Below, one piece after another: positions 6,696 to 56,615 of a stretch of DNA of 64,000 nt (the first letter of the stretch is position 1; every line of letters begins with the position of its first letter). A program made the position numbers and the translations under genes. Source of the stretch: Actinoallomurus soli (GTDB lineage Bacteria > Actinomycetota > Actinomycetes > Streptosporangiales > Streptosporangiaceae); assembly GCF_024055715.1 (NCBI RefSeq), contig NZ_JAMXMV010000019.1, positions 62,001 through 126,000 on the forward strand. Reading direction: 5' to 3'. The notes below the pieces were generated by a model that had not been told where the DNA came from, searched no databases, and saw nothing but the letters and a program-made list of their open reading frames with translations.

Positions 6696-6735
6696 GCCGA
6701 GGGTCTCCGTCGTCGGAACGACGGAGACCCTCGGC
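6696..6735 (-). terminator. Strong hairpin terminator after the PKS-CCR operon
   Basis: A perfect 18-bp stem (6696-6713 paired with 6718-6735) is closed by a 4-nt loop, CGGA. It begins 20 bp beyond the CCR stop codon. There is no clear T tract, which is common in actinomycete terminators. It should separate the PKS-CCR transcript from the phosphoesterase gene. Confidence 0.8.
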
Positions 6736-6755
6736 GGCGGTGACCGGTACGGCGG

Positions 6756-8069: not shown

Positions 8070-8077
8070 GGAACCTC

Positions 8078-14947
<6,870 letters not shown>

Positions 14948-15098
14948 TACGCACGGTCACTGATGAAACAACGCGGAAGAGTGAACACCGTGTCTTATCC
15001 GGCATGAGTCCCGATGCGCACAAAGGTCACTTTTCTCTCAGCTGCCTTATCACCGCGATGACAAGACTCACCGTGGTGAATATGGCCTTATAGGTCGA
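14948..15098. promoter_or_regulatory. Divergent promoter region between PKS and NRPS operons
   Basis: The 151-bp gap separates the minus-strand PKS-CCR operon from the plus-strand MFS-NRPS operon, so it should hold promoters for both. I see AT-richer patches (around 14994-14999, 15043-15049 and 15083-15092), two direct copies of GCCTTAT about 42 bp apart, and a loose TCACC/GGTGA dyad. I could not fix a convincing -35/-10 pair or a known regulator site. Confidence 0.45.
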
Positions 15099-16745
15099 AT
15101 GACCCGCACGCGACATGGATGGACGCTCACTGTGATCGCGGTCGCCGGGTTCATGACCACACTGGACAACACGGTCGTGAACGTCGCGCTGCCGTCGATC
15201 CAGCGTGACCTGCACATCTCCCTGTCCGCCCTGGAATGGGTCGCGACGTCGTACATCCTGATCTTCGCGAGCGTCATGCTCGCCGGCGGCCGCATGGCCG
15301 ACGTGTACGGCCGCAAGCGGATCTTCCTGATCGGCCTGACCGTCTTCACGGCGGCGTCCGGGCTCGCCGGGCTGGCCGGAAGCGCCGAGACGCTGATCGC
15401 CGCCCGCGTCGTCCAAGGCGCCGGCGGCGCACTGGTCATCCCGGCGGGGCTGGCACTCGTCACCGTCGGCCGTACCGAGCGGGAACAGGCGCGGGGCACC
15501 GTCGTCTGGGTCGGCTCGGCCGCGCTCGCGCTCGCCCTCGGCCCGGTGGCCGGCGGGTACATCGCCCAGCACTGGGCCTGGAACTGGATCTTCCTCATCA
15601 ACCTCGCGCCCGGCCTCGCCGTCGTGCTGCTGGGCGTGTTCGTGATCCCGGAGTCGCGGGACACCACCGCGGACGGCGTCGACCTGCCCGGCATGCTCGC
15701 CTCCGGGACCCTGCTGTTCGCCGTCACGTACGCGCTGAACGAGGTCGCCTCCCACGGGTGGGGCAGCGGCATGGTGCTCGGGGCGTTCGCGCTGGCCGCC
15801 GTGGCGCTCGTCGCGCTGGTCACGGTCGAGCGGTGGGCGCACACGCCGATGATCGACCTGGTGTTCTTCCGCAGCCGGGCGTTCACGGGCGGGGTCGCGG
15901 TGCAGATCCTGTGGGGGGTCGGCTTCAACGGCGTGCTGTTCTACGCCTCGCTGTTCCTGCAGCAGGTGCTGCGGTTCTCCCCGACGAAGACCGGCTCGGT
16001 GTTCCTGCCGCCGGCCGTCGTGATCGCCGCCCTGACGCCGGTGTCGTTCTGGGTGGGCCGCAGGATCGGCGCCCGCTCGACGATCGCCTGGGGCCTGTTC
16101 CTCATGGCCGCCGGGATGGCGGCGTTCGCGCTGCTGCGGCCCGGGGACGGCTACGCCGACCTGCTGCCCGGCGTGGCTCTGATCGGTGTCGGCTCCGCGC
16201 TGAACATGCCGCTCACCGGTTACGTCCTGACGTCGATCCCCGAGGAACGTTCCGGCGTCGCGGGCGGCATCCTCAGCGTCGGCCGCGAGGTCTCCGGGGC
16301 CTTCGGCATCGCGATCATCGGCGTCATCATCTCCGCGCGGCAGCGGTCCGAACTCGCGTCCGGGAAGGGGCACGCCACCGCGTTCCAGCACGCCACCTCG
16401 GCCGGGCTGCTGTGCGGCGCCGGCCTGGTCTGCCTCGGCGCGCTCATCGCCTTCGCCACGCTGCCGCCCCGCCCGCGCCGCGCCCGGCACGCCCGCCCGT
16501 ACGGCCCGGTCGGGACCGCGGACGCCGACGCTCTGGGCACGGCCGCCGACGTCCGGAACGCGCTCGCCGACGTCACGCCGGCCCCCGAGCCGGCGGCACG
16601 CCCGGGCCGGGGCGAGGTCCCCGACGTCGCGGGCGCCCCGGAGCCGGCGGCACGCCGGGGCCCGGGTGAAATCCCCGGCGTCGCGGGCACGCCGGAACGG
16701 CGGCCGCTGCGGGCCTGGTCACCGCCTGCCGAGAGCGTGCGGTGA
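15099..16745 (+). CDS. MFS drug transporter, DHA2 (14-TMS) family
   Basis: This encodes 548 residues, and the pattern of about 14 hydrophobic segments fits the EmrB/QacA DHA2 family of proton-driven exporters. Early family motifs are DNTVVNVALPSIQ in helix 1 and GRMADVYGRKRIF (motif A). Motif C is ALGPVAGGYIAQ, followed by WNWIFLINLAPG. It is the first gene of the NRPS operon and overlaps the glycosyltransferase start by 4 bp (GTGA), so it probably exports the lipopeptide or gives self-protection. The C-terminal tail of about 70 residues is low-complexity and contains two copies of a roughly 19-residue unit (EPAARPGRGEVPDVAG and EPAARRGPGEIPGVAG), which is not part of the family fold. The ATG at 15099 has only a weak ribosome-binding site. 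Confidence 0.92.
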   Translation: MTRTRHGWTLTVIAVAGFMTTLDNTVVNVALPSIQRDLHISLSALEWVATSYILIFASVMLAGGRMADVYGRKRIFLIGLTVFTAASGLAGLAGSAETLIAARVVQGAGGALVIPAGLALVTVGRTEREQARGTVVWVGSAALALALGPVAGGYIAQHWAWNWIFLINLAPGLAVVLLGVFVIPESRDTTADGVDLPGMLASGTLLFAVTYALNEVASHGWGSGMVLGAFALAAVALVALVTVERWAHTPMIDLVFFRSRAFTGGVAVQILWGVGFNGVLFYASLFLQQVLRFSPTKTGSVFLPPAVVIAALTPVSFWVGRRIGARSTIAWGLFLMAAGMAAFALLRPGDGYADLLPGVALIGVGSALNMPLTGYVLTSIPEERSGVAGGILSVGREVSGAFGIAIIGVIISARQRSELASGKGHATAFQHATSAGLLCGAGLVCLGALIAFATLPPRPRRARHARPYGPVGTADADALGTAADVRNALADVTPAPEPAARPGRGEVPDVAGAPEPAARRGPGEIPGVAGTPERRPLRAWSPPAESVR

Positions 16746-18046
16746 CCGGGGTGCGGCGCGACATCGTCATCTTCGCGGCCGGCTCGCGGGGCGACGTCCA
16801 GCCCTGCGTCGCGCTCGGCCGGGGCCTGGCCGAGCGCGGCCACGGCGTCCGGCTCATCGTCGCGGCCGGCCACGAGCCCCTCGCCGCCGGGCTGGACACC
16901 TCCGTCCTGTCCGTCGACCCGGCCCGGCTCCTGGAGACCGACGAGGTCCGCGAGTGGCTGCGGAACGGCCGTAACCCGCTCGGCTTCGTCGCGGGGTTCC
17001 GGCGCGTGATCCGGCCGATGGCCGAGATGCTGCTCGGCGAGATCCTGGCCGGCTGCAAGGACGCCGACCTGCTGATCTTCCCGACGCTGGGCTTCGTCGG
17101 GCACCACCTCGCCGAGTACCTCGGCATCGACGACGCGCTGATCCACTTCCAGCCCAGCCAGCCGACCAGCGCCTTCCCGCACCCGCTGGTGTCCCGGGCG
17201 TACGGCGCGAACCGGCTGAGCTACCACCTGGTGGAACAGCTCGCCTGGCAGCTCTCCCGGCCCTTCCTCAACACCTGGCGGCGCGACACGCTCGCGCTGC
17301 CGAAACTCCCCCTGGGCGGCCCGATCCGCACCGTACGGGACGTTCCGGTGCTGGCCTGCTTCAGCGAGGCCGTCGTGCCCCGGCCGCCGGACTGGCCCTC
17401 CCACGTCCACGTCACGGGGTACTGGTTCCTGGACGAGCCCTCGTGGACGCCGGGCCCGCGGCTCGCCGACTTCCTCGCCGCCGGGCCGCCGCCGGTCTAC
17501 GTGGGGTTCGGCAGCATGACGCCGCCGCACCCCGAGGCGATGGCCGCGACGGTACGGGCGGCGCTGCGCGCCGCGGGCGTGCGCGGGATCCTCGCGTTCG
17601 GGGACGACGGGGCGGGCGACGACGACGTCCTGGTGGTCGGGGACGTGCCGCACTCATGGCTGTTCCCCCGGATGCTGGCGGCCGTGCACCACGGCGGCGC
17701 GGGCACCACCGCCGCCGCGCTGCGGGCCGGGATCCCCGCCGTCGTCTGCCCGTTCTTCGGCGACCAGACGTTCTGGGGCGGCCGGGTGGCGGCGCTCGGC
17801 GCCGGTCCCGCCCCGCTGCCGATCAGGAGGCTCGCACCGGAGCCGCTCACCGCGCGGATCACGGCGGCCGTGGGCGACGAACGGATGCGCCGCCGTGCGG
17901 CGGACCTGGGCCGGCGGATCGCGGCGGAGGACGGTGTCGCCCGCGCCTGCGCCGCGCTGGAGAACGCCCACGGAGCCGGGGCGGCCCGACGCGTTGGAGA
18001 CGGCCTGGGGGCGGCCGGAAACCATGGAAACGGGGACGATCGATGA
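16742..18046 (+). CDS. Glycosyltransferase, GT1 / sterol-glucosyltransferase-like
   Basis: This encodes 434 residues of the GT-B fold. The N-terminal domain opens with IVIFAAGSRGDVQPCVALGRGL, typical of GT1 enzymes such as sterol 3-beta-glucosyltransferases and the glycopeptidolipid rhamnosyltransferases. The C-terminal donor-binding signature is VHHGGAGTTAAALRAGIPAV, then PFFGDQTFWGGRVAALG. It should transfer a sugar from a nucleotide donor to a hydroxyl of a lipid or peptide. It overlaps the MFS gene by GTGA and the FAAL gene by ATGA, so it is translationally coupled inside the biosynthetic operon; a role in glycosylating the lipopeptide (Thr, Ser or hydroxy-acyl group) is the natural inference. 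No deoxysugar pathway genes lie in the window, so the donor probably comes from general metabolism. Confidence 0.88.
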   Translation: MTGVRRDIVIFAAGSRGDVQPCVALGRGLAERGHGVRLIVAAGHEPLAAGLDTSVLSVDPARLLETDEVREWLRNGRNPLGFVAGFRRVIRPMAEMLLGEILAGCKDADLLIFPTLGFVGHHLAEYLGIDDALIHFQPSQPTSAFPHPLVSRAYGANRLSYHLVEQLAWQLSRPFLNTWRRDTLALPKLPLGGPIRTVRDVPVLACFSEAVVPRPPDWPSHVHVTGYWFLDEPSWTPGPRLADFLAAGPPPVYVGFGSMTPPHPEAMAATVRAALRAAGVRGILAFGDDGAGDDDVLVVGDVPHSWLFPRMLAAVHHGGAGTTAAALRAGIPAVVCPFFGDQTFWGGRVAALGAGPAPLPIRRLAPEPLTARITAAVGDERMRRRAADLGRRIAAEDGVARACAALENAHGAGAARRVGDGLGAAGNHGNGDDR

Positions 18047-19773
18047 CGAGCTTCGTGCACCACCTGCGGGCCCAGGTCGCGCGCCACGGCGACGACCGCT
18101 GGTACGCGCTGGTCGACGAGCACAAGGGCGAGCTCGTCGAGCTCGAACGCGCGACGTTCGCGGAGCTGGACGGCCGCGCGCGGTCGGCGGGCGCGTGGCT
18201 CGCCGCCGCCGGCCTGGACGGTGAGGCCGCGCTGCTGCTCTACCCGACCGGGCTGGAGTTCCTCCGCGTCTTCCTCGGCTGCCTGTACTCGCGGGTCATC
18301 GCCGTGCCGTCGCCGCTGCCGTCCACCGACCCGCGCGCGCTCGAACGCGCGGAGGGCATCATCAAGGACGCCGACATCCGGATGGTCCTCACCGACACGG
18401 CGAACGCGCCGATGCTCACCTCCTGGCTGCGCGAGAGCGGGCTGGACGGCCGGGTGACGTGCGTGGCCACCGACGCCGCCGCGATGCCGGACCCCGACGC
18501 GTGGGAGCCGCCGGAGCCGGAGCCGGGCACCCCCGCCTACCTGCAGTACACCTCCGGCTCCACGAGCGAACCGCGCGGCGTCCTGCTGTCCCACGGCAAC
18601 CTGCTGCACAACTCCGCGCAGATCTACACGATCCTCGGCCGCCCCGAGGACGGGATCGGCGCGGGCTGGCTGCCGCACTACCACGACATGGGACTCGTCG
18701 GCCTGCTCCTCCAGCCGCTGTACGCGGGCGGCAGCCTGGCGTTCGCCTCGCCCGTGTCGTTCGTGATGAGACCGGCGCTGTGGCCGCGAATGATCAGCCG
18801 GTACCGCGCCCAGTACACCGTCGCGCCGAACTTCGCCTACGAATGGCTGGTGCGCGGGGTCAAGGACGAGCAGCTCACCGGCCTGGACCTGTCCTCGCTC
18901 ACCTGGGCGCTCAACGGCGCCGAGCCCGTCCGTACGTCGACGCTGGAGAAGGTCGTCCGGCGGTTCGGCGAGGTGGGGTTCCGGCGGGGGGCCTGGGCGC
19001 CGGGCTACGGGATGGCCGAGGCGACGCTGCTGGTCACCGGCACCGAGCGCGGCCGTGGCCCGGTCGTCGGCCGGTTCGACCCGGCCGCGTTGGAACAGGA
19101 CCGCGCCGAGCCCGCCGCGGAGGGAGTGGAGCTGGTCGGGTGCGGGCGGCCGATCGACCTGACGGTGCGGATCGTCCACCCCGAGTCGGCCGAATCGCTG
19201 CCCGACGGCCGGATCGGCGAGATCTGGGTCGCGGGCGGCAGCATCGCCCTCGGGTACCGGCAGCGCGCCGAGGCGACCGAGGAGACCTTCCGGGCGCGCC
19301 TGGCCACCGGAGAGGGGCCGTTCCTGCGCACCGGGGACCTCGGGTTCGTCCACGACGGCGAGCTGTACGTCACCGGACGTCTGAAGGACCTGATCATCGT
19401 CAACGGCCGGAACATCTATCCACAGGATGTGGAAGAGGCGAGCCGGGACGTCCACCCCGCCGCCCGCGCCGCCGCCGCGTTCGGCGTGGAGGCCGGGCGC
19501 GAGCACGTCGTCCTCGTCCAGGAGGTACGGCCCAAGGACCTGGGCGAGCTCACCTACGCGGACCTCGCCCGGCGGATCAAGGGGGAGCTGGCCCGTGCGT
19601 TCGGGCTGCCCTCGATGAACGTCGTCCTCGTCCAGCGCGGCGGCGTCGGCAAGACCACCAGCGGCAAGATCCAGCGGCGGCGGATGCGCGAGACGTTCCT
19701 GGCGGGCCGGATCGCCCCCCTCCACACCGAACTCGAACCGGAGCTGCGCGCCCTCATCCCCACCGGTGAATGA
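18043..19773 (+). CDS. Fatty acyl-AMP ligase (FAAL) for lipoinitiation
   Basis: This encodes 576 residues of the adenylate-forming superfamily. Core motifs are YLQYTSGSTSEPRGV, GWLPHYHDMGLVG, APNFAYEW, ALNGAEPVR, GYGMAEATLLV, FLRTGDLGFV and GRLKDLIIVNGRNIYPQDVE, with the C-terminal Lys region GKTTSGKIQRRR. The FAAL-type HYHDMG and NIYPQDVE motifs point to an enzyme that passes the acyl-AMP to a carrier protein rather than to CoA. It is followed by a stand-alone ACP and then by an NRPS that begins with a condensation domain, the classic arrangement for N-acylating a lipopeptide. The ATG at 18043 overlaps the glycosyltransferase stop (ATGA). Chain length and substituents of the acid are not readable; the PKS product is one candidate. 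Confidence 0.94.
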   Translation: MTSFVHHLRAQVARHGDDRWYALVDEHKGELVELERATFAELDGRARSAGAWLAAAGLDGEAALLLYPTGLEFLRVFLGCLYSRVIAVPSPLPSTDPRALERAEGIIKDADIRMVLTDTANAPMLTSWLRESGLDGRVTCVATDAAAMPDPDAWEPPEPEPGTPAYLQYTSGSTSEPRGVLLSHGNLLHNSAQIYTILGRPEDGIGAGWLPHYHDMGLVGLLLQPLYAGGSLAFASPVSFVMRPALWPRMISRYRAQYTVAPNFAYEWLVRGVKDEQLTGLDLSSLTWALNGAEPVRTSTLEKVVRRFGEVGFRRGAWAPGYGMAEATLLVTGTERGRGPVVGRFDPAALEQDRAEPAAEGVELVGCGRPIDLTVRIVHPESAESLPDGRIGEIWVAGGSIALGYRQRAEATEETFRARLATGEGPFLRTGDLGFVHDGELYVTGRLKDLIIVNGRNIYPQDVEEASRDVHPAARAAAAFGVEAGREHVVLVQEVRPKDLGELTYADLARRIKGELARAFGLPSMNVVLVQRGGVGKTTSGKIQRRRMRETFLAGRIAPLHTELEPELRALIPTGE

Positions 19774-19829
19774 CGCCCGCCGACCGGCCGGGCTCCCCCG
19801 CACCCGGCGCACGACTCTACGGAGGCCCC

Positions 19830-20156
19830 ATGCCCAGTGAGACGCTCATCCGCGACTGGCTGATCGAGCGCGTCGCCGAGTACCTCGAACGCTCCCCCGC
19901 CGACATCGACCCGTCGGCGATGCTCGCCGAGTACGGCATGGACTCGGTGTACGCGATCAGCCTGTGCGGCGACATCGAGGCGGAGTACGACCTGGACGTC
20001 GAGCCGACCCTCGCCTGGACCCACCCCACCATCGACGCCATCGCCGCCCACCTCGGCGAACGCGTCGGCGACCACCCCGCCCCCGACTCTGTTCCCCCCG
20101 ACCAACCGACCCCGACCCACCTCCCGGCCCACCCCGACCAACCGACCCCGGCCTGA
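19830..20156 (+). CDS. Stand-alone acyl carrier protein
   Basis: This encodes a 108-residue ACP. The phosphopantetheine attachment serine lies in EYGMDSVYAISL, near residue 38, followed by the usual helix III region (EPTLAWTHPTIDAIAAHL). It should carry the acyl chain from the FAAL to the first condensation domain of NRPS1. The start at 19830 is supported by GGAGG at 19821-19825; an ATG at 19770 that overlaps the FAAL stop would add 20 residues without ACP similarity. The last 25 residues are Pro-rich, with two copies of DQPTP, probably a flexible docking tail. It lies 6 bp before NRPS1. Confidence 0.93.
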   Translation: MPSETLIRDWLIERVAEYLERSPADIDPSAMLAEYGMDSVYAISLCGDIEAEYDLDVEPTLAWTHPTIDAIAAHLGERVGDHPAPDSVPPDQPTPTHLPAHPDQPTPA

Positions 20157-20162
20157 CCCTCC

Positions 20163-41742
<21,580 letters not shown>

Positions 41743-41746
<4 letters not shown>

Positions 41747-41806
41747 GCACCGGACGCGGGCGGCGGGAGGATCTGTGACGACCGGACGCGGGCGGCTGGA
41801 GGACGT
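41743..41806 (+). repeat. 32-bp tandem duplication at the NRPS2/NRPS3 junction
   Basis: Units 41743-41774 and 41775-41806 match at 27 of 32 positions, and each begins with GTG followed by an A. The first GTG overlaps the NRPS2 stop as GTGA but opens a frame of only 11 codons that ends at the second unit. The second GTG starts NRPS3. The duplication moved the working start codon 32 bp away from the upstream stop codon. Confidence 0.85.
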
Positions 41807-44800
41807 CCTGCCGCTGTCCCCGCTCCAGCAGGGGCTGTACTTCCACGCCGCGCTGGACGACCGGGACCTGTACGCGACGCAGCTCGTGCTCGACCTGGAG
41901 GGCCCCCTGGACGTCGCCGCGCTGAAGCGCGCCGCGTCCGCGCTGCTCGCCCGGCACGCGAACCTGCGCTGCGGCTTCCGGCAGCGCAAGAACGGCGAAC
42001 CGGTCCAGCTCGTCCACCGCGAGGTCGCCCTGCCTTGGGAGGAGGCGACCGGCGACCCCGGCGCCGTCGCCGAGCGGGAGCGCGCCCGGCCGTTCGACCT
42101 GGCGCGGCCGCCGCTGCTCCGGTTCACGCTGGTCCCCGGCGGGCCGGACCGGAACCGGCTCATCGTCACGAGCCACCACATCCTCCTGGACGGCTGGTCG
42201 ATGCCGGTCCTCGCGGAGGAGTTCTTCACGCTCTACCTCGGCGGCACGCTTCCTCCCGTCACGCCGTACAAGCGGTACCTGGAGTGGCTGGCCGGCCGGG
42301 ACCGTACGGCGGCCCGCGAGGCCTGGGCGAAGGCCCTCGACGGCGTCGAGGAGCCCACGCTGGTCGCACCGGCGACGGCGGCAGGGCCGCCGGTGCCGCC
42401 GCGCCGGGTCACCACCGAGGTCGCGCTGGACCTGTCGGCGGTCCGGCGGCACGGGCTCACCCCGAACACGCTGGTCCAGGGCGCGTGGGGGCTGCTGCTG
42501 TCCCGGCTGACCGGCCGCGACGACGTGGTGTTCGGGGCGGCGGTGTCCGGCCGTCCCCCGGAGATCCCCGGCGTCGGGCGGATGGTCGGGCTGTTCGTCA
42601 ACACGGTTCCGGTCCGGGTGCGGATCGACGAGGAGCGGTCCGTCGCGGCGCTGCTCACGCGGCTGCAGGACGAGCAGGCCGAGCTGTTCCCGCACCAGCA
42701 CGCCGGGCTGACCGAGATCAGCCGGACGCCGCTGTTCGACACGATGACCGCGTTCGAGAACTATCCACAGCCTGGGGATATCGCGCTCGGCGACGTACGA
42801 CTGACCCGTGTGGATCTCTTCGACGCGACGCACTACCCCCTCGCCCTGGTCGCCGCGCCGCTCGGCGGCGACCGGCTGTGGCTGCGGCTCGACCACCGGC
42901 CCGACGCGTACGACGACGCGGAGGCCGCGCTGCTGCTCGCCCGCGTCGAGCGGCTGCTGCGCGCGATGGCCGCGCGCCCCGACGCCCCCGTCGGCGACCT
43001 GGACATTCTGCTGCCCGGCGAACGCGACCGGATCCTGGGCGACTGGGCCGACGGCCCGCCCGCCGCGCCGCCCCGTACGCTGCCGGAGCTGGTCGGGACC
43101 TGGGTCGGGCGCACGCCCGACGCCCCCGCCGTGACCTGCGAGGACACGACGCTCACGTACGCGGAGCTGTGGGCGCGGGCCGGTGCGCTCGCCGGCGAGC
43201 TGACCGCGCTGGGCGTCGGCCCGGAGACGATCGTGGCGATCGCGCTGCCCCGGTCGGTGAACTTCGTCGTCTCCGCCCTGGGCGTGAGCCGGGCGGGTGG
43301 CGCGTACCTGCCGATCGACCCCGGCTATCCGCCGGACCGCGTCGCGTTCATGCTCGACGACGCCCGGCCCGCCTGCCTGATCGCCCCACCCGGCGTGCCG
43401 CTCCCGTACGACGGGCCGCGCCTGTCCCCGCCGGCGGCCGGGCGCGACGTCCGGACCCGGCCCGTACGGCCCGAGAACGCGGCGTACGTCATCTACACCT
43501 CCGGGTCGACCGGGCGGCCGAAGGGCGTGGTCGTCTCGCACGCGGGCCTGGCGAGCCTCGCCGCGACCGAGATCGAGGGGTTCGGCCTCGCGCCGGGCGA
43601 CCGTACGCTGCACTTCTCCTCGCCGAGCTTCGACGCCTCGGTGTTCGAGCTGCTGATGGGCCTCGCCTCGGGCGGGACCGTGACGATCGTGCCCCCGGAC
43701 GTGTACGGCGGCGAGGCCCTCCGCGACGTGCTCCGGGAGGTGACGCACGGCTTCGTCGCCCCGGCCGTGCTCGCGGGCCTCGACGCCGACGGCCCGGCGA
43801 ACCCGCGCACCCTCGTCGTCGGCGGCGAGTCCTGCCCGCCCGGCCTCGTCGAACGCTGGGCGCCCGGCCGCCGGATGATCAACGCGTACGGGCCGACGGA
43901 GACCACCGTCGCCGCGACGATGAGCGCGCCGCTCACCGGCGACGCCACGACGATCGGCCTGCCCATCACCGGCGCGCGGGTGTACGTGCTCGACGGGCGG
44001 CTGCGGCCCGTCCCGCCCGGCGTGCCCGGTGAGCTGTACGTCGCCGGGATCGGCCTGGCCCGCGGCTACCTGAACCGGCCCGCACCGACCGCCGAGCGCT
44101 TCGTCGCCGGCCCGTTCGGGCCGGGCCGGATGTACCGGACCGGGGACCTCGTCCGGCGGCGGGCCGACGGCCGCCTGGAGTACCTCGGCCGTACGGACGC
44201 GCAGGTCAAGGTGCGCGGCTTCCGGATCGAGCCCGGTGAGATCGAGGCGGTGCTCGCCGGGCAGGACGGCGTCGGGCGGGCCGCCGTCGTCGTCCGCGAG
44301 GATCGGCCGGGCGACCGGCGCCTCGTCGCGTACGTCACCGGCGACGCCGACCCGGCCGAGCTGCGGCGGGCGGCGGCGCGGACCCTCCCCGGCCACCTGG
44401 TCCCCTCCGCCGTCGTCGTCCTGGACGCCCTCCCGCTCGGCCCGAGCGGCAAGCTCGACCGCGCGGCGCTGCCCGCGCCGGAGGTCTCCGGGGTTTCCCG
44501 GCCGCCGCTGGGGCCGCTGGAGGAGGTCCTGTGCGGCCTGTTCGCCGAGGTCCTGGGCCTGGACCGGGTCGGGGTCGAGGACGGGTTCTTCGAGCTCGGC
44601 GGCGACTCCCTGCTCGCCACCCGCCTGGCCGGCCGGGTCCGCGCCGAGCTGGGCGCCGACCTGCCGGTCCGTACCGTGTTCGAGGCGCCGACCGTCGCGG
44701 CGCTCGCCGGCCGCCTCGACGCGGCGCCCGCCGGCGGGACCGCGCCGCTCGACGTGCTCCTGCCGCTGCGCGCGCGGGGCGACCGGCCGCCGCTGTTCTG

Positions 44801-45482
44801 CGTGCACCCCGCCGTCGGCGTGGCCTGGTCGTACGCCGGGCTGCTGCGCCACCTGCCGGACCGGCCGGTGTACGGCCTGCAGGCCCGCGGCATCGCCCGC
44901 GACGAGGACCTGCCCGGATCGGTGGAGGAGATGGCCGCCGACTACGTCGCCGTCATCCGCGGCGTCCAGCCCCACGGCCCGTACCACCTGCTGGGCTGGT
45001 CGCTCGGCGGCCTGATCGCGCACGCCATGGCCGTACGGCTGCGGGCCGGCGGCGAACAGGTCGCCCTCCTCGCGCTCCTGGACGCCTACCCCCTCGACGG
45101 CGACCCGGATGCCGAGGTGCCGCTGCCCGACCTGCTGCGCGACCTCGGGTTCGCGGTGCCCGAGGAGGTGACGGCGGAGGACGTCGCCGGTCTCCTGGAG
45201 GGCAGCGCGCTCGGCGGGATCGACGTCCACCGCCTGGAGGGCCTCTACCGCGCCTACCTGAACGCCCTGCGCAACGGGCGGCGGTTCGTTCCCGGACGGT
45301 TCGACGGGGACCTGCTGCTGTTCACCGCCGCGCGCAACACCGAGGCGCCGCCCGCCGACGTGTGGGCGCCGTACGCCGCCCGCGTCGAGCCGTACGCGGT
45401 CGACTGCGCGCACACCGAGATGGCCGATCCCGGCCCACTGGCCCACATCGCCGCGAAGTTGAAGGAGAGTCTGGATCCATGA
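41775..45482 (+). CDS. NRPS, module 7 with thioesterase: C-A-PCP-TE
   Basis: This encodes 1235 residues. C7 begins with [19 protein letters not shown] and has HHILLDG; like C4 it follows an E domain, so it should accept a D-residue. A7 reads DAFFVGAVAK by eye; Phe at the fourth position and the DAF opening suggest a hydrophobic aliphatic residue, but there is no exact match that I know. PCP7 has S945. The TE (about 1007-1232) has S1076 in GWSLGG, an Asp in LLDAYPLDG and a His in CAHTEM; it releases the seven-residue chain by hydrolysis or macrocyclisation, and Thr1 or Ser3/Ser4 hydroxyls would be possible ring-closing nucleophiles. I chose the GTG at 41775 because GGGAGG lies 4 nt upstream and the C-domain motif begins 9 codons later. 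The stop overlaps the mbtH-like ATG (ATGA). Confidence 0.94.
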
Positions 45483-45700
45483 CCAACCCGTTCGAAGACC
45501 CCGACGGCCGGTACCTCGTCCTCGTCAACGAGGAGGGGCAGCACTCCCTGTGGCCGACGTTCGCCGACGTCCCCGCGGGATGGACCGTCGCGCACGGCGA
45601 GGACACCCGGCAGGCGTGCCTCGACTACGTCAACGAGCACTGGACCGACATGCGCCCGAAGAGCCTGATCGCGGCCATGGAACAGCACGAGAGGGGCTGA
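45479..45700 (+). CDS. MbtH-like protein
   Basis: This encodes 73 residues, the standard size. The signature is complete: [10 protein letters not shown], then VPAGW, then a Leu-containing spacer and NEHWTDMRP. MbtH-like proteins bind NRPS adenylation domains, often as solubility and activity partners, and are needed by many actinomycete NRPSs. The ATG at 45479 overlaps the NRPS3 stop (ATGA), with GAAGGAG upstream, so it is translated together with the synthetases. It is too short to be safely missed, and its position directly after the TE module fits its role. Confidence 0.97.
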
Positions 45701-45701
45701 C

Positions 45702-46448
45702 GTGCCGGGCTGGATCCGCACCTTTCAGGCCCGGCCCGCCGCGGCCACGCGGCTGATCTGCTTCCCCCACGCGGGCGGGTCGGCGGCGTTCTACCGGCCC
45801 TGGGCCCTGGCGGCCACGGAGGTCGACGTCCGCATCGCGGAGTACCCCGGCCGGGCGGACCGGCTGTTCGAGCCCCTCGTCGACGACGCGGTCGAGGTCG
45901 CCCGCGCCGTCACGGAGGCGCTGCTGCCGCTGCTGGACCGACCGGTCGCGCTGTTCGGGCACAGCATGGGAGCGACCATCGCGTACGAGACGGCCCGCCT
46001 GCTGGCCGCGCGCGGCACCCCGCCGGCGCACCTGTTCGTCTCCGCCTCCCGCGCCCCCGGCGACCGCCCGGTCAAACCGGCCGGAGAGGTCTTCCACGAC
46101 AAGGACGACGACGTGCTCGTCGCCGAGCTGGTCCGGCTCGGCGGGACGGACGCGCAGGCTCTCGCCGACCCGCAACTGCGCGAACTCGTCCTCCCGTACA
46201 TCCGGAGCGACTTCCGGCTCCTGGAGAGTTACCGGCACGCGCCGGGCCCGCCCCTCGACGTCCCGATCACCGCCTTCACCGCGGACGCCGACCCGATCGT
46301 CACGCCCGCGCAGGCCGAACGCTGGGCCGAGGTCACCACCGGCGCGTTCGCGCTGCGGATCTACCCCGGCGACCACTTCTACCTGCTCCCGCACCGGGAC
46401 GCGCTGCTGGCGGCGATCCAGGAGGGTCTCGCCGGACGGGTCAGGTGA
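45702..46448 (+). CDS. Type II thioesterase
   Basis: This encodes 248 residues of the alpha/beta hydrolase fold. Type II TE features are LICFPHAGGSAAFYRPW near the start, GHSMGATIAYE with the nucleophile Ser, DPIVTPAQAERW and the catalytic His in GDHFYL. These stand-alone enzymes clear misloaded or stalled acyl groups from carrier domains and so restore blocked assembly lines. The GTG at 45702 lies 1 bp after the mbtH-like stop, with GAGAGGGG upstream. It is the last gene of the NRPS operon, and its 3' end overlaps the oppositely oriented lipoprotein gene by 8 bp. Confidence 0.94.
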   Translation: MPGWIRTFQARPAAATRLICFPHAGGSAAFYRPWALAATEVDVRIAEYPGRADRLFEPLVDDAVEVARAVTEALLPLLDRPVALFGHSMGATIAYETARLLAARGTPPAHLFVSASRAPGDRPVKPAGEVFHDKDDDVLVAELVRLGGTDAQALADPQLRELVLPYIRSDFRLLESYRHAPGPPLDVPITAFTADADPIVTPAQAERWAEVTTGAFALRIYPGDHFYLLPHRDALLAAIQEGLAGRVR

Positions 46449-51092: not shown

Positions 51093-52127
51093 TCAGACGC
51101 GCTTGGCGCCGATGGCGGCCATGATCTTGGGCCAGGCGGTGTGCATCTCGCGCTTCCAGGCGGGCCAGGAGTGCCGGCCGTCGCCGTAGATGTGCGAGGT
51201 GATCGGAACGTGGAGCTCCTGGGCCTTCTGGGCGAACGTCACGTTCGTGGCGCCGACCATCCGCTCGCTGAGCAGGCCGATGTCCCAGGGCGCGGTCTTG
51301 GGGTTGTCGCCGGGGCCGGGCTTGCCGGTCGTGCCCGACGAGATGTAGACGCCGGTGCCCTTGAGCCGCTGGATGAGGTACAGCGGGTCGTGCTGACGCC
51401 AGTTCACGTCGTCCAGGCCCGGCACGCCCCAGATGCGGAACGGGTCCGTGCCGTCGTTGGCGCCGACGATCGTGAACATCAGCAGCGCGGGCACGCCCGG
51501 CGACCGGATCGACAGCACGCCGCTGTACGAGGCGGCGTACCGGTACAGGCCCGGGTAGCGCTCGGCGTACGTGATGGCGCCCTCGCCGCCGGAGGAGTTG
51601 CCCATGACGGCGCGCGCGGTCCCGGCGTGGTAGGCGCGCTCCACGATCTCGCGGACCTCGGTGGTGTGGAAGGTCTCCCACTCGGGGGTGCCGTACTTGC
51701 CGTAGTTGTACCAGTTCGTATATGAGCCGTTCACGCCGCCCTCCGGCATGACGACCATGACGTTGTACTTGTACGCGTAGGTCTCGATGTCGGTGCTACG
51801 GGTCCACGACTGATAGTGGTCGCGGCCGCCGTGCAGGGCGTACAGCACCGGGTACCGCTTGGTCGTCGAGGTCTTCCAGCCCTTCGGCACCAGGATCCGC
51901 ACCTTGACCGACTGGCCGAGCGCGACCGACTTCACCGTCAGGTCGACCTCGTGACTGGTGAGCCACTTCTGCGAGGTGACGCGCGCCCCGTCGCTCGCCT
52001 TGGCGGTCGTCGGCACCTTGTTGCTCGGCTTGCTCGCCGCGTCGGCGGGCGACGCACCCGCCATGGCGACGGCCAGGGCCGCACCCATGGTCGACGCGAT
52101 GGCGCGGCGGAGCGGAGTTCCTGGCAT
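51093..52127 (-). CDS. Secreted esterase of the antigen 85 / mycolyltransferase-like family
   Basis: This encodes 344 residues with a Sec signal peptide (RRAIASTMGAALAVAMAGAS, likely cleaved after SPADA). The alpha/beta hydrolase fold shows YPVLYALHGG, the nucleophile S178 in MGNSSGGEGA and H319 in GDGRHSWPAWK; the His-Ser-Trp context resembles the HSWEYW of antigen 85 proteins. Such enzymes transfer long acyl chains between trehalose or cell-wall sugars, or hydrolyse them, outside the membrane. Its ATG at 52127 lies 2 bp after the MMPL stop, with GGAGGATTGA upstream inside the end of that gene, so it is translationally coupled. Together with the FAAL and MMPL genes it suggests activation, export and final transfer of a lipid. 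The exact acceptor is unknown, and an ordinary esterase is also possible. Confidence 0.85.
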   Translation of the reverse strand: MPGTPLRRAIASTMGAALAVAMAGASPADAASKPSNKVPTTAKASDGARVTSQKWLTSHEVDLTVKSVALGQSVKVRILVPKGWKTSTTKRYPVLYALHGGRDHYQSWTRSTDIETYAYKYNVMVVMPEGGVNGSYTNWYNYGKYGTPEWETFHTTEVREIVERAYHAGTARAVMGNSSGGEGAITYAERYPGLYRYAASYSGVLSIRSPGVPALLMFTIVGANDGTDPFRIWGVPGLDDVNWRQHDPLYLIQRLKGTGVYISSGTTGKPGPGDNPKTAPWDIGLLSERMVGATNVTFAQKAQELHVPITSHIYGDGRHSWPAWKREMHTAWPKIMAAIGAKRV

Positions 52128-52129
52128 GC

Positions 52130-54862
52130 TCAATCCTCCGGTGTCTTCCAGTGCCACCCGGGGCGGTCCGGGTTGGGAACGATCTCTCGCTGGGGACGGG
52201 GGGCGCTCGGGCCGCCTTCCGCCTCCTCGAATGTCTCGCGGGACGCCAGAGGCCGGCCGTTGACGGCCGCGACCCGGCGCAGGATCTCGTCGGCGAACGT
52301 CGGCTCGCCCGCGTTCTCGGACTCGTCGGTGAGCGTCGGCTCGCCCAGGCTCTCGAGCTCTTCGGCGCGCGTCGGCTCGCCCAGGCTCTCGAGCTCTTCG
52401 GCGCGCGTCGGCGTGCCGGTGCTTTCGAGCTCGCCGGTGCTCTCGGGCTCGTCGGCGGCGGGCGGCCCGGGGACGGCCGGGGGCTGCGGGGCCGACCGCA
52501 GCGCCCTCCGTTCCGCCCTCAGTTCGGCCAGCCGCTGCGACTGCCGCCGCGCCCTGGGCGCGGGGGCCGCCGCGACCAGCGCGGGCTCCAGCGGCGAGGT
52601 CTCGCCCGGGGCCGGTGCGTCCTCCTCGGCCGCGGCCCGCTCCACGGCAGGCGAATCCCCCGCGGCGCCTCCCACGGCCGGCGGCGGCTCCTCCTCGGTC
52701 TCGTGTTCGCCGAGGTCGATGCGGGAGTGGAGGGCGCGCAGGGGGCGGGGCAGCCACCAGTTCGCCGGGCCGAGGAAGCGCATCGTCGCCGGGACGAGCA
52801 GCATCCGGACGAGCGAGGCGTCGACGACGATCGCCACGAACATCCCGACGCCGATGAGCTTGACCAGGGTGATCTCCGCCGTGGAGAACACCGCGATCAC
52901 CACGAGGAACAGCACCGCGGCGCTGGAGATGATGCCGCCCGTACGCTGCAGGCCGATGGCGACGGACCGGGCGTTGTCCCCCGTACGGTCCCACTCCTCG
53001 CGGACCCGGCTGAGCAGGAACACCTCGTAGTCCATCGACAGCCCGAAGACCGTGAGCAGGACGAGGATGATCGTCGTCGGCTCGGTCGTGCCGGTCGGGG
53101 TGAAGCGCAGCAGGCCCGCGAGGTGGCCGTCCTGGAAGCCCCACACGATCGCGCCGAACGACGCGCCGAGGGACAGCAGGTTCATGGCGACGGCCTTGAG
53201 CGGCAGCACGATCGACCCGAACGCCATGAACAGCAGCAGGAACGTGACCAGCCCGATCACCGCGCCGACCGTGGGCAGGCCGCGCCGCAGGCTGTCCATC
53301 ATGTCCATCTGGGCGGCCGTGGAACCGCCGACGTCGGCGTACAGGGCCTCGCGCTGCGGCGGGACGGCGCGGATGCGGCGGACGAGGTCGCGGGCCTGGT
53401 CGCTCATCGCGGCGTACCGGTGGCGGACGGAGATGCGCACCGCGGCGTACTTGTCGGCGTATCCGGTGATCTCCACGCTGGTGACGCCGGGCAGGTGCCG
53501 CAGCCGGTCCTCGTAGTCGGTGATGAAGGACGGCACCGGCCGCTTCTTCGACGGCACGAAGTTCTTCGGGATGAGGTCGCCGGACAGGACGACGTCGATC
53601 GGGTCCTTCGAGCCGGTCGGGAACTCCCGCTGGAACGCCTCGTACAGCCGGCGGTTCGGGCTGCTCGTGGGCAGCACGCGCACGTCGGTCGTGCCGAACC
53701 GCACGTGCAGGAACGGCGTGGTCGCCGCGCCGAGGACCACCATGACGCCGACGAAGTACAGGATCGGGTGGCGCATGACGCTGGTCGCCAGGCGGTACCA
53801 CGGGCCGCTGTCGCGCCGGACCTCGCGGGCCCGGCGGCGCCAGGGCATCCGGCCGAACTCCACGCGGGGGCCGAGGAGGGCGAGCAGCGCGGGCAGCAGG
53901 ACCAGCGCGCCGACGATCGCGACGGCGACGACCGCCATGCCGCCGAGGCCGACCGAGCGCAGGAACATCTGCGGGAACAGCAGCAGGCCGCTGAGCGCCG
54001 TCGTCACCGTGATGCCGGAGAACGCGATCGTGCGGCCCGCCGTCGCCATCGTGTTCGCCAGGGCCGTCGGCCGGTCGGCGCCGCGCGCCAGCTCCTCCCG
54101 GAACCGGTTGACGATGAACAGCGAGTAGTCGATCGCCAGGCCGAGGCCCATCATCGTGATGACCTCGGCGCTGAAGGACGAGACGTCGGTGACCATCGTC
54201 AGCAGCCGCAGGACGGTGAACGCCCCGACGATGGAGAACGCGCCGACGACGAGCGGCAGCCAGAACGACCCGAGGCTGCCGAACACCAGCAGCATCAGGA
54301 CCAGCAGCACCGGGAAGGAGATCGTCTCCGCGCGGGCCAGGTCGCCCTGCGTCTGGGTGTTGAACTCCTTGGCCAGCGGCACGCCCCCGCCGACCCGTAC
54401 GCTCAGGCCCGGCGCGCCGAACCGGTCCTTGATGGCGTCGTACGAGGCGGCCTTGGCCGAGTCGTCGCCGGCGAGCTGCACGGCGGCGAACGTCGCGTGC
54501 CGGTCCTTGGACGCCAGCTCGGCGACGCGCGGCGTCTGGCTCCAGTACGTCAGGACGCCCCGGATCCGGTCCTGGGGCAGGCGGGCGAGGGTCGTGGTGA
54601 CGGCGCCGCGGAAGCGCGGGTCGTCGATGGTCAGCCGGTCGCTGCGGTAGATGACGAAGACGTCGGGCGTGGAGTTGCTGAAGTACTGCGCGGACAGCTT
54701 GGCCACGAGCGAGGACGAGGAGTGCGGGTCGTCGAAGCCGCCGCTCTTCAGCCGCGCGACCGCGCCCGACCCCCACATGCCGGACAGGACCGCGAACGCC
54801 AGGCACAGGGCGAGACAGCTCAGCCGTCGTCGATGGACGAGGCGTCCCAGACCGGCGAACAT
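52130..54862 (-). CDS. MMPL-family lipid transporter (RND superfamily)
   Basis: This encodes 910 residues with about 12 membrane segments in two repeats and two large extracytoplasmic loops. The proton-relay Asp-Tyr pairs typical of MmpL proteins are present: GLGLAIDYSLFIVNRFREE and FGLSMDYEVFLLSRVREEW. Such proteins move lipids such as trehalose mycolates and other glycolipids across the membrane. The C-terminal cytoplasmic tail (about 170 residues) is low-complexity and contains two exact copies of a 36-bp unit encoding ELESLGEPTRAE-like repeats, then ends with RPGWHWKTPED. It follows the FAAL gene after 13 bp and runs into the esterase gene after 2 bp, so the three form an operon. The substrate is probably the acyl product of the FAAL branch. 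Confidence 0.93.
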   Translation of the reverse strand: MFAGLGRLVHRRRLSCLALCLAFAVLSGMWGSGAVARLKSGGFDDPHSSSSLVAKLSAQYFSNSTPDVFVIYRSDRLTIDDPRFRGAVTTTLARLPQDRIRGVLTYWSQTPRVAELASKDRHATFAAVQLAGDDSAKAASYDAIKDRFGAPGLSVRVGGGVPLAKEFNTQTQGDLARAETISFPVLLVLMLLVFGSLGSFWLPLVVGAFSIVGAFTVLRLLTMVTDVSSFSAEVITMMGLGLAIDYSLFIVNRFREELARGADRPTALANTMATAGRTIAFSGITVTTALSGLLLFPQMFLRSVGLGGMAVVAVAIVGALVLLPALLALLGPRVEFGRMPWRRRAREVRRDSGPWYRLATSVMRHPILYFVGVMVVLGAATTPFLHVRFGTTDVRVLPTSSPNRRLYEAFQREFPTGSKDPIDVVLSGDLIPKNFVPSKKRPVPSFITDYEDRLRHLPGVTSVEITGYADKYAAVRISVRHRYAAMSDQARDLVRRIRAVPPQREALYADVGGSTAAQMDMMDSLRRGLPTVGAVIGLVTFLLLFMAFGSIVLPLKAVAMNLLSLGASFGAIVWGFQDGHLAGLLRFTPTGTTEPTTIILVLLTVFGLSMDYEVFLLSRVREEWDRTGDNARSVAIGLQRTGGIISSAAVLFLVVIAVFSTAEITLVKLIGVGMFVAIVVDASLVRMLLVPATMRFLGPANWWLPRPLRALHSRIDLGEHETEEEPPPAVGGAAGDSPAVERAAAEEDAPAPGETSPLEPALVAAAPAPRARRQSQRLAELRAERRALRSAPQPPAVPGPPAADEPESTGELESTGTPTRAEELESLGEPTRAEELESLGEPTLTDESENAGEPTFADEILRRVAAVNGRPLASRETFEEAEGGPSAPRPQREIVPNPDRPGWHWKTPED
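52335..52406 (-). repeat. Two exact 36-bp tandem units in the MMPL tail
   Basis: The 36-bp unit at 52335-52370 is repeated without a mismatch at 52371-52406, with degenerate copies on both sides. It encodes a 12-residue acidic unit. Exact identity suggests a recent slippage event. Confidence 0.85.
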
Positions 54863-54875
54863 CGCTGCCCTTCGT

Positions 54876-56615
54876 CTACCGGATCACGGGCAGCGTCCCG
54901 GCGAGGTACCGCTCCCGGCAGGCACTGCGCGCGATCTTTCCGCTGGACGTGCGCGGAACTCCGCCCGGCTCCACGAGCACGAAGTCGTCGAGCCGCAGTT
55001 CGTGGGCGGCGCTCACGGCGCTCCGTACGGCGCGGGCGATGTCCTCCACGGGGACGCCCTCGCCGCCCCGAGCGCGTTCGGCGACGACGACGACCCGTTC
55101 GCCGTCCTCGCCGGCGAGCGCGAACGCCGCCACGTGGTCGCGCCGGATCCCCTCGTGCGCCTCCTGCGTGCTGACCTCCACATCCTGGGGATAGTGGTTG
55201 CGGCCGTCGACGATGATGAGGTCCTTGATCCGGCCGGTGACGTACAGCTCGCCGTCGTGGACGACGCCGAGGTCGCCGGTGCGCAGCCAGCCCTCGGCGG
55301 GCAGCCCGCCGGCCGGGTCATCCAGGACGGCGCCGAACACCTCGGCGGTCCTGCCGGGGTTGCGCCAGTAGCCGGGTGAGACGTTCGGGCCGTTCACCCA
55401 GATCTCGCCGACCCGGCCGTCCGGCAGTTCGATCCGCGACTCCGGGTCGACGACGGCCACGTGCTGGCCGGTCGGCGTGCCGCAGGACACCAGGACGGTG
55501 TCGCCGCCGGGCCGCGCCTCGCCCCCGGCCAGCGCCACCCGGTCGAACGCGGTGAACCGCGGCTCGCCCCGCGTCTTGCTGGAGACGTACACCGTCGCCT
55601 CGGCCAGGCCGTACCCCGGCGACTGCGCGGCGGGCCGCAGCCCCGCCGAGGCGAAGGCCTCGGCGAACATCCGCACGGTGTCCGGCCGGATCGGCTCCGC
55701 GCCGTTCAGCGCGACCCACAGGCCGTCGAGCCGCAGCCGGGCCTTCTCCTCCTCGGTGACCCGTGAGGCGCAGTACTCGTACGCGAAGTTCGGCCCCGCC
55801 GTGATCACGTCGTCGTGCTCGGACAGCAGCTCCAGCCAGCGCAGCGGCTCCATCACGAACGCCACCGGGTCGGTCAGGACGAGGTGGTTGCCGTGCACCA
55901 GCGGCAGGGCCAGCGCCAGGATCAGCCCCATGTCGTGGAACAGCGGCAGCCAGCTCACGCCGACCGTCACCCGCGGCCGCGCCTCGTACGCGGCCCACAC
56001 CTGCAGCGCGTTGGCGGTGATGTTCCGGTGGGTGATCTGCACGCCGGCCGGCGCGCGGGTCGACCCGGAGGTGTACTGCAGGTACGCCACGTCGTCCAGG
56101 GCGATCTCCTCGCCCGGCCAGGAGGCGGCGAGCGAGACGTTCACCGTGTCGGCCAGCACGATGTCCTTGGGCCGGGGCGCGCTCTGCTCGTCCAGGAAGC
56201 GCTCCACCTGCGGGAGCGCGGACGTCACGGTCACCACCACGGACGGGTCCGCGTCGCCGTACGAGCGGATCAGCCGGTCGCCGTGGCCCGGCAGGTCCGG
56301 GGAGAACAGCGGCACGGCGATGAGCCGGGCGTACATCGCCCCGATCATCGTGGTGAGGTACTCCAGGCTCTGCGGCATGAGCAGCGCGACGCGCTCACCG
56401 GGTTCGGCGACCTCGCGCAGCCGGGCGGCGATCGCGCGCGCCCGCCGGTGCATCTGCCCCCAGGTGAGCTCCTGCCGCTCGCCCGCCGGGTCGGCGGCGT
56501 AGTCGACGAAGGTCAGGGCCGGCGCGGACGGCATCTCGGCCGCCCTGCGGGCCACCGCCGCGATGAGCGGTTCGTCCAGGGCTCCGGGCTCCAGAGGCCG
56601 ACCACTCAGTGCCAC
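54876..56615 (-). CDS. Second fatty acyl-AMP ligase, FadD32-like
   Basis: This encodes 579 residues from a GTG at 56615, preceded by GGGAG. Adenylation motifs are YLQYTSGSTRAPAGV, SWLPLFHDMGLI, AGPNFAYEY, ALNGAEPIR, GYGLAEATVYVSS, WLRTGDLGVV, GRIKDLIIVDGRNHYPQDVE and the catalytic Lys in RTSSGKIARSA. The LFHDMG and NHYPQDVE forms belong to the FAAL group, and the order FAAL-MMPL-esterase is reminiscent of FadD32-linked mycobacterial lipid loci. It should form acyl-AMP for a carrier protein, yet no ACP lies in this operon; the N-terminal ACP of the PKS at 8078-14947 is one candidate partner. It is clearly distinct from the FAAL at 18043. Confidence 0.92.
   Translation of the reverse strand: MALSGRPLEPGALDEPLIAAVARRAAEMPSAPALTFVDYAADPAGERQELTWGQMHRRARAIAARLREVAEPGERVALLMPQSLEYLTTMIGAMYARLIAVPLFSPDLPGHGDRLIRSYGDADPSVVVTVTSALPQVERFLDEQSAPRPKDIVLADTVNVSLAASWPGEEIALDDVAYLQYTSGSTRAPAGVQITHRNITANALQVWAAYEARPRVTVGVSWLPLFHDMGLILALALPLVHGNHLVLTDPVAFVMEPLRWLELLSEHDDVITAGPNFAYEYCASRVTEEEKARLRLDGLWVALNGAEPIRPDTVRMFAEAFASAGLRPAAQSPGYGLAEATVYVSSKTRGEPRFTAFDRVALAGGEARPGGDTVLVSCGTPTGQHVAVVDPESRIELPDGRVGEIWVNGPNVSPGYWRNPGRTAEVFGAVLDDPAGGLPAEGWLRTGDLGVVHDGELYVTGRIKDLIIVDGRNHYPQDVEVSTQEAHEGIRRDHVAAFALAGEDGERVVVVAERARGGEGVPVEDIARAVRSAVSAAHELRLDDFVLVEPGGVPRTSSGKIARSACRERYLAGTLPVIR

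Follow-up and report, generated by a model that had tools for sequence, protein, structure and literature searches.

What does a bacterium of the order Streptosporangiales do with genes that resemble those of mycobacterial envelope lipid biology? The question is raised by a 64,000 nucleotide stretch of the 9.4 Mb genome of Actinoallomurus soli (positions 62001-126000 of contig NZ_JAMXMV010000019.1, assembly GCF_024055715.1; hereafter the window). Here the genes of a fatty acyl-AMP ligase (FAAL), an MmpL-type transporter (MMPL) and a secreted Ag85-like enzyme (EST) follow each other on the minus strand from 56615 to 51093, with gaps of 13 bp between FAAL and MMPL and of 2 bp between MMPL and EST. 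We find that this triad is part of a seven-gene locus, which also includes a glycosyltransferase (GT), a major facilitator superfamily (MFS) exporter, a polyketide synthase (PKS) and a crotonyl-CoA carboxylase/reductase (CCR), and which is conserved across Streptosporangiales. We consider it reasonably, though by no means strongly, probable that FAAL, MMPL and EST make up one half of a seven-gene lipid pathway, the half for activation, export and transfer, and that this pathway works like the condensation-export-transfer route of mycolates.

The conservation of the locus was followed in two samples. The first consists of the DNA around EST matches in genomes of the order and is, by its selection, not an even one. 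In 17 of its 29 scaffolds from outside the window's genome, a stretch of no more than 40 kb contains FAAL, MMPL, EST, PKS and CCR, and clustering of the proteins encoded on the scaffolds adds GT and MFS as two regular neighbours. The genes come in two main arrangements. Order A, FAAL>MMPL>EST> <GT <MFS PKS>CCR>, is found in Actinomadura, Spirillospora, Actinocorallia, Actinoallomurus and others; the EST is missing from its spot in many of these loci, including that of Actinomadura madurae, where all the other genes stand side by side. Order B, FAAL>MMPL>MFS>GT>F9> <EST PKS>CCR>, is found in Nonomuraea, Planobispora, Planomonospora and Streptosporangium. The second, even sample was gathered on MMPL similarity alone and consists of the best 79 of 342 relatives, all from named organisms. 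In 75 of these 79 loci the gene immediately upstream of MMPL is a FAAL, counting genes that overlap by a few bases, which makes a chance association unlikely; the exceptions are L176, L187, L188 and L201 (L, G, g and f numbers are our own labels for loci, genomes, genera and families). At least 9.5 kb of downstream DNA was available for 58 named loci, 54 of them with FAAL. Among those 54 we found MFS in 48, GT in 47, PKS in 41 and EST in 30, with GT, MFS and PKS together in 39 and any of the three in 49; the EST and PKS counts are lower bounds, since order B places both near the end of the flank.

The first-pass annotation of the window, made from its letters alone, had tied the triad to the PKS-CCR pair, and both samples bear this out. 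It had also named a triad that is common without a PKS partner as the observation that would speak against the link, and we followed this up in part. Five of the 54 loci have neither GT nor MFS nor PKS in the flank (L125, L144, L146, L152 and L166), the L125 locus being interrupted by a nonribosomal peptide synthetase (NRPS) island. We searched for CCR in the genomes of L144, L146, L152, L166, L168 (whose flank has GT alone) and L187 (which lacks FAAL). The five FAAL-bearing genomes each contain a CCR that is 73-78% identical to that of the window and adjoins the end of a PKS of the same type (60-62%), outside the 10 kb flank; a triad without PKS was thus not seen in the five genomes tested. 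In the genome of L187, where FAAL is lost, there is no CCR at E<=1e-80, and in A. iriomotensis (L176), whose MMPL is without FAAL, the search gave a weak match only.

The locus was also followed from the CCR side. A match at E<=1e-100 is present in 46 of 150 genomes of the order, and 36 of the 150 score at least 574 bits, the lowest score with an inspected locus; there is no clean gap below this value (G106 has 571.9 and G147 568.4 bits). The DNA was inspected around 22 of the 36 CCRs, and a system-type PKS, i.e. one of the type found in this locus, adjoins in all 22, the window included. CCRs of at least 574 bits occur in 13 of the 14 genomes of genus g19 among those listed, the genus totals being counted from listed genomes, which cover all but ten of the order's. 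The features of the window are collected in the table; genes were called by a home-made GC-frame method, and their start positions may be off.

Features of the window, with positions counted from its first nucleotide
Feature	Assignment	Position	Strand	Basis
FAAL	Fatty acyl-AMP ligase, FadD32/FadD26-type	54876..56615	-	GTG start, 579 aa; Pfam AMP-binding; PDB matches; tree
MMPL	MmpL3-like subfamily transporter, long C-terminal tail	52130..54862	-	910 aa; Pfam MMPL; PDB matches; tree
EST	Secreted Ag85/mycoloyltransferase-like enzyme	51093..52127	-	344 aa; Pfam Esterase; S178-E288-H319, WETF and HSW motifs; tree
PKS	Polyketide synthase, ACP-KS-AT-(degenerate DH)-KR-ACP-(carrier-like, no Ser)-TE	8078..14854	-	NCBIfam, motifs, tree
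CCR	Crotonyl-CoA carboxylase/reductase family, proposed source of alkylmalonyl-CoA extender	6756..8069	-	TIGR01751, PDB match
GT	GT1-type glycosyltransferase	16742..18046	+	PDB match, NCBIfam, conserved position
MFS	MFS exporter, DHA2 (EmrB) type	15132..16745	+	Family models, conserved position
NRPS island	Lipopeptide cluster with its own FAAL, ACP, three NRPSs, MbtH-like protein and TE; not part of the system	18043..46448	+	NRPS, MbtH and TE labels by eye

Gene reading and Pfam confirm the place, spacing and families of the triad as first annotated. In a PDB sequence search the best match of the FAAL is 5d6j (1.2e-130), which is listed as 'Acyl-CoA synthase' and which we take to be FadD32; 5ey9, listed as FadD32, follows with 2.6e-123. 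The best match of the MMPL is MmpL3 (9.7e-107), as opposed to only 1.3e-31 for the best MmpL5, and its nearest named loci are those of Actinoallomurus purpureus (81%) and A. spadix (85%, best MMPL segment). The trees in this work are quick ones with SH-aLRT (Shimodaira-Hasegawa-like approximate likelihood ratio test) support only, given here in brackets, and several long branches were flagged in them. The FAALs of the system group with four extra FAALs that lie beside EST paralogues (88), and FadD32 is separate (100). The system MMPLs form a clade (97), which also includes L187 and three MMPLs whose FAAL fell outside the fetched DNA; it is nested in a wider MmpL3-like clade (98) with other actinobacterial MMPLs, and true MmpL3 forms a separate clade (100). 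Similar groupings recur across the FAAL, PKS and MMPL trees. Identity of the MMPL with true MmpL3 is ruled out by this separate clade, together with a missed family cut-off and a class-wide survey that are described below. The C-terminal tail of the MMPL contains in-frame short repeats, ELESLGEPTRAE, at about 52290-52440 of the window.

The EST has a Sec-type signal peptide, as judged by eye. Its best PDB sequence match is 6sx4, 'Protein PS1', i.e. mycoloyltransferase A of C. glutamicum (1.2e-49); Ag85A follows with 3.8e-19. An AlphaFold2 model of the protein has a mean confidence score (pLDDT) of 87, and its 28 best fold matches in the PDB are all Ag85, MPT51 or mycoloyltransferase chains. 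The Ser178-Glu288-His319 triad is invariant in 33 of 33 ESTs of the system and in a 20-row alignment mixed with mycolate enzymes, and the WETF/HSW region is conserved; the HSW motif reported earlier as Ag85-like is present as H319-S-W321. By its predicted alpha/beta hydrolase fold and its Ser-Glu-His triad, the EST belongs to the Ag85/mycoloyltransferase family. In the tree, which was made without homologues of other orders, it does not fall within the clade of the mycolate-bacterial enzymes and sits beside it: a 32-row clade of the order (97) stands next to the 14-row mycolate-enzyme clade (98), with a joint branch of 92. Six other PF00756 proteins of the window's genome were included: five are placed far from the EST clade, and the sixth (L002, C11:900007) is a paralogue within it. 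One further PF00756 locus of this genome (L004), for which no gene was called, is not in the tree.

There are further EST-like genes, outside the locus and within it. The second Ag85-like gene in the window's genome lies at G000:C11:900007-900921 (about 8007-8921 of L044) and its product is 52% identical to the EST; in other genomes of the order the number of Ag85-like matches reaches 11. Tandem EST duplicates occur inside the locus in L085 (3501-5508), L167 (12498-14508) and L173 (12498-14505). A second, convergent FAAL-EST pair is present in four genomes of the order (L030 5491-8345, L032 8387-11227, L033 5437-8311 and L035 5536-8470), with FAALs 54-56% and ESTs 56-60% identical to the query proteins, and there is no MMPL or PKS match within the 18 kb fetched around these pairs.

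The PKS and the CCR are both where the first reading had seen them, and their domains suggest what the pathway may produce. Among 20 PKS orthologues the cysteine and histidines of the ketosynthase (KS), the GHSMGE motif of the acyltransferase (AT), the nucleotide site and Ser-Tyr pair of the ketoreductase (KR), and the GWSFG motif and histidine of the thioesterase (TE) are kept in all 20, and the HxxxGxxxxP motif of the dehydratase (DH) is found in 0 of 20. The serine of the C-terminal acyl carrier protein (ACP) domain was seen by eye in 20 of 20 and that of the N-terminal ACP in 18 of 20 proteins, where two starts are cut by the gene calls; pattern counts of 16 and 12 out of 20 for the N- and C-terminal ACP, respectively, are undercounts from hand-written patterns. 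Judging by these motifs, the PKS appears to be of the single-condensation, beta-hydroxyacyl type, with KS, AT, KR, ACP and TE intact and DH dead. Since KR is kept and the DH motif is lost, one condensation with a beta-hydroxy product is the simplest reading, which agrees with the product predicted in the first-pass annotation.

The AT loop, which reports extender choice, reads GAGHS in 20 of 20 PKSs of the system, as compared to GASHT in four and GAGHT in one of five Pks13 genomes and VAPHN in both Pps-like PKSs of L282. In the PKS tree the system (99), Pks13 (100) and Pps (100) form three separate clades whose branching order is not settled. The CCR passes the TIGR01751 equivalog cut-off (496.9 vs 378.55 bits) and is closest in the PDB to an octenoyl-CoA carboxylase/reductase, 4a0s (2.7e-161), presumably CinF; crotonyl enzymes give 4e-143. 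Beside the PKS there is no gene for an acyl-CoA carboxylase beta subunit, and CCR stands in that place. Two further features of the PKS are a third carrier-like domain before TE (about aa 1930-1980), which in the window's protein has GGREDQ where the phosphopantetheine serine is expected, and Gly-rich in-frame short repeats in a linker near aa 1480-1550.

The closest solved structures of the GT are sterol 3-beta-glucosyltransferases, which suits a lipid hydroxyl as its target. The order B gene F9 encodes a secreted, cysteine-containing protein of about 430 aa that occurs in many loci of that order (L182 16747-18051 and 21 homologues). It has no Pfam or NCBIfam match, and its model (pLDDT 64.5) has no PDB fold match at E<=0.001; many of the weak fold matches are, we assume, TIM barrels.

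How might these proteins work together? The genes, their conservation, their motifs and the predicted EST fold are what we observe; each substrate and reaction of the following scheme is drawn from homology and motifs. FAAL would turn a long fatty acid into an acyl-AMP and load it onto the N-terminal ACP of the PKS, while CCR would reductively carboxylate an enoyl-CoA to an alkylmalonyl-CoA, which would be selected by the AT with its GAGH loop. After one condensation by the KS, the KR would reduce the beta-keto group and, with a dead DH, an alpha-alkyl-beta-hydroxy acid would result. The TE would release it, perhaps onto a sugar, and the GT would put a sugar on the lipid; trehalose as the sugar is a guess. 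The product would then be exported by the MMPL, possibly together with the MFS protein, and the secreted EST, as an Ag85-type transferase, might take the acyl chain off the exported carrier and hand it, outside the membrane, to a second acceptor. The product we infer is thus an alpha-alkyl-beta-hydroxy (glyco)lipid that is exported and transferred outside. What Pks13, the carboxylase, the mycolyl reductase, MmpL3 and Ag85 do in the mycolate pathway is described in PMC4949712; in comparison, CCR would replace the acyl-CoA carboxylase, and a KR in cis would replace the separate mycolyl reductase.

It is useful to compare the general features of the locus with those of known systems. With the mycolate machinery it shares a FAAL and a single-condensation PKS that has an N-terminal ACP and a C-terminal TE, an MmpL3-like exporter, a transferase of (here predicted) Ag85 fold and the GA[GS]H loop of the AT, and FAAL, PKS and Ag85-type genes adjoin in both. 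The differences are that the system has CCR in place of an acyl-CoA carboxylase (in L278 and L280 we take the gene that follows Pks13 to be AccD4), a KR and a dead DH in the PKS, and GT and MFS in the locus, and that its PKS, FAAL, MMPL and EST are all in clades apart from their mycolate counterparts. The locus is a real, conserved system. On paper it follows the logic of the mycolate route, but by the tests run it does not belong to that route. Mycobacterial lipid loci such as those for phthiocerol dimycocerosates (PDIM/Pps), sulfolipid, acyltrehaloses and glycopeptidolipids also combine FAAL, PKS and MmpL, and the PpsA-like protein of L282 (the label is our own) shares 63% of its KS and 42% of its AT residues with the window's PKS. 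The system differs from these loci in its single module with a TE, its CCR partner, its Ag85-type transferase and its AT loop. Finally, CCR adjoins PKS here as it does in known extender pairs such as that of CinF, the octenoyl-CoA carboxylase/reductase group that also provides the best PDB match. Known pairs of this kind make modular polyketides, whereas the PKS of the system consists of a single module that is primed by FAAL and linked to MMPL and EST. In the open-access literature, none of the matches listed describes the locus, as judged by titles and the openings of abstracts.

A number of findings weigh against a mycolate-like pathway. The NCBIfam cut-offs of the corresponding mycolate proteins are missed by the FAAL (555 of 975 bits for NF038339, FadD32, which is the third-ranked model), the MMPL (453 of 1400 bits for NF052608, MmpL3) and the PKS (1159 of 2100 bits for NF040607, Pks13). 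By residue identity over whole domains, the PKS, labelled 'PpsA-like' in the first-pass annotation, is nearer to Pps-like PKSs than to Pks13: the KS is 63 and 56% identical to the two Pps-like PKSs of L282 and 52-54% identical to Pks13, and the AT 42% as compared to 34-37%. The top NCBIfam model of the PKS is Pks13, although this leads the next one, NF045894 (1157.5 bits), by 1.5 bits only. Ag85-like proteins at E<=1e-25 are present in 29 of 197 genomes of the class, of which 6 belong to the window's family, 6 to f6, which is that of the mycolate genomes, and 17 to others; 14 of these 17 have a single copy. Of 98 genomes of the class, 26 have an MmpL3-like MMPL at E<=1e-80; in 22 of these 26 no match passes the MmpL3 cut-off, and two of them are in the window's own family; this survey undercounts, as the window's genome itself gives no match at E<=1e-80 and yet hmmscan of the whole protein gives 2.7e-135. 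Since both protein types occur widely, neither alone implies the proposed chemistry. At 24 of 54 loci no EST was seen in the roughly 10 kb that follow MMPL, some copies perhaps lying beyond the flank, and the EST is therefore the least fixed member of the triad. GT is missing by protein clustering from three of the 17 full scaffolds (G067, G031 and G076), and the system-type CCR is patchy in genera g7 (5 of 16) and g17 (2 of 9) among the genomes listed. Chemical descriptions point in the same direction: mycolic acids are reported absent from the genus Actinomadura in PMC8631618, and for Nonomuraea corallina PMC10694255 gives mycolic acids as absent and three unidentified glycolipids as present. 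The product may accordingly be shorter, labile or no mycolate at all.

Other explanations have to be weighed against the same data. The locus might make a secreted glycolipid natural product of the biosurfactant or antibiotic type, e.g. a glycosylated alpha-branched beta-hydroxy acid, in which case the GT would glycosylate the beta-hydroxyl, MFS and MMPL would export the product, and the EST would be an extracellular esterase or the enzyme that forms a macrodiolide. Macrodilactone glycolipids of actinobacteria exist, the GT and MFS types are common in natural product clusters, and the best NCBIfam model of the GT is Rgt, a rifamycin-inactivating enzyme (103.5 of 800 bits, below the cut-off). 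The patchiness in g7 and g17 and the NRPS cluster adjoining the locus in the window also fit such a product, but a niche metabolite would not be expected to show the near-constant presence in g19 and the concordant trees, and MMPL with an Ag85-type enzyme is an envelope pattern. We regard this explanation as possible, if rather doubtful. A role in degradation or uptake, with FAAL and EST processing exogenous esters and PKS-CCR being independent and linked by accident, seems quite improbable to us. PF00756 esterases are often catabolic, and in five genomes the 10 kb that flank FAAL-MMPL do not include PKS-CCR; however, FAALs feed carrier proteins and not beta-oxidation, the separated halves still share a genome in 5 of 5 cases tested, and L187, which lost FAAL, also has no CCR at E<=1e-80.

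The neighbouring NRPS cluster raises a further possibility, namely that FAAL, MMPL and EST lipidate, export and deacylate its lipopeptide and that there is no PKS lipid. The window, on the minus strand, corresponds to order A with the NRPS cluster inserted between EST and GT, and the cluster of A. purpureus occupies the corresponding position (proteins 83-91% identical, thioesterase 61%), so that the locus is split by it in both strains. The cluster, however, has its own FAAL and ACP, and the comparison with A. spadix is instructive: window positions 6696-18131 align piecewise at 89-93% to one stretch of that genome, and the next collinear match is 45598-46434. A. spadix is thus without 27.5 kb of the NRPS cluster, of which the thioesterase alone remains (87%), and retains all seven genes of the system at 83-96% protein identity. 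This indicates that the NRPS cluster is separate from the lipid system, and the order A and B scaffolds of other genera likewise have no NRPS-sized gene between the two halves of the locus. A triad dedicated to the NRPS is largely refuted by A. spadix, and we consider it extremely improbable. The first-pass annotation is partly supported: it was right in joining the triad to PKS-CCR, and had missed GT, MFS, the split by the NRPS cluster and the Pks13 model at the top of the PKS list.

The mycolate-like pathway, if it exists, would be of more general interest. Related bacteria reported to be without mycolic acids carry the same set of genes and may make an unrecognised surface lipid. We speculate, with considerable doubt and as something rather unlikely, that a second kind of mycolate is made by Actinomadura, Actinoallomurus, Planobispora, some Nonomuraea and their relatives, which belong to a group whose classification gives mycolic acids as absent. 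This would be an alpha-alkyl-beta-hydroxy acid that one FAAL-primed PKS module builds with a CCR-derived extender. An MmpL3-like pump would export it linked to a sugar, expanded Ag85-type enzymes would fix it to the envelope, and a mycomembrane-like outer layer would have arisen in this way alongside that of Mycobacteriales. If this were true, Mycobacteriales would not be the only inventors of mycolate-type lipids: a sister solution that draws the carbon of the branch from another source would exist in a large family known for antibiotic production, to which Actinomadura madurae, an agent of mycetoma, also belongs. It would also account for the several Ag85-like enzymes in genomes without mycolic acids, allow comparisons that bear on how the mycolate route was put together from its parts, and provide non-mycobacterial MmpL3-like and Ag85-like proteins to study.

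A few genes around the locus may be mentioned as well. A gene for a solute-binding and von Willebrand A protein lies directly upstream of FAAL (window 56777-58513, minus strand); it is in the same place in A. spadix and does not adjoin FAAL in A. purpureus. In L128, L152, L166 and further loci of order A, an IclR-type regulator gene is found 2-3 kb upstream of FAAL, and many scaffolds have a gene for a PucR-type regulator near CCR.

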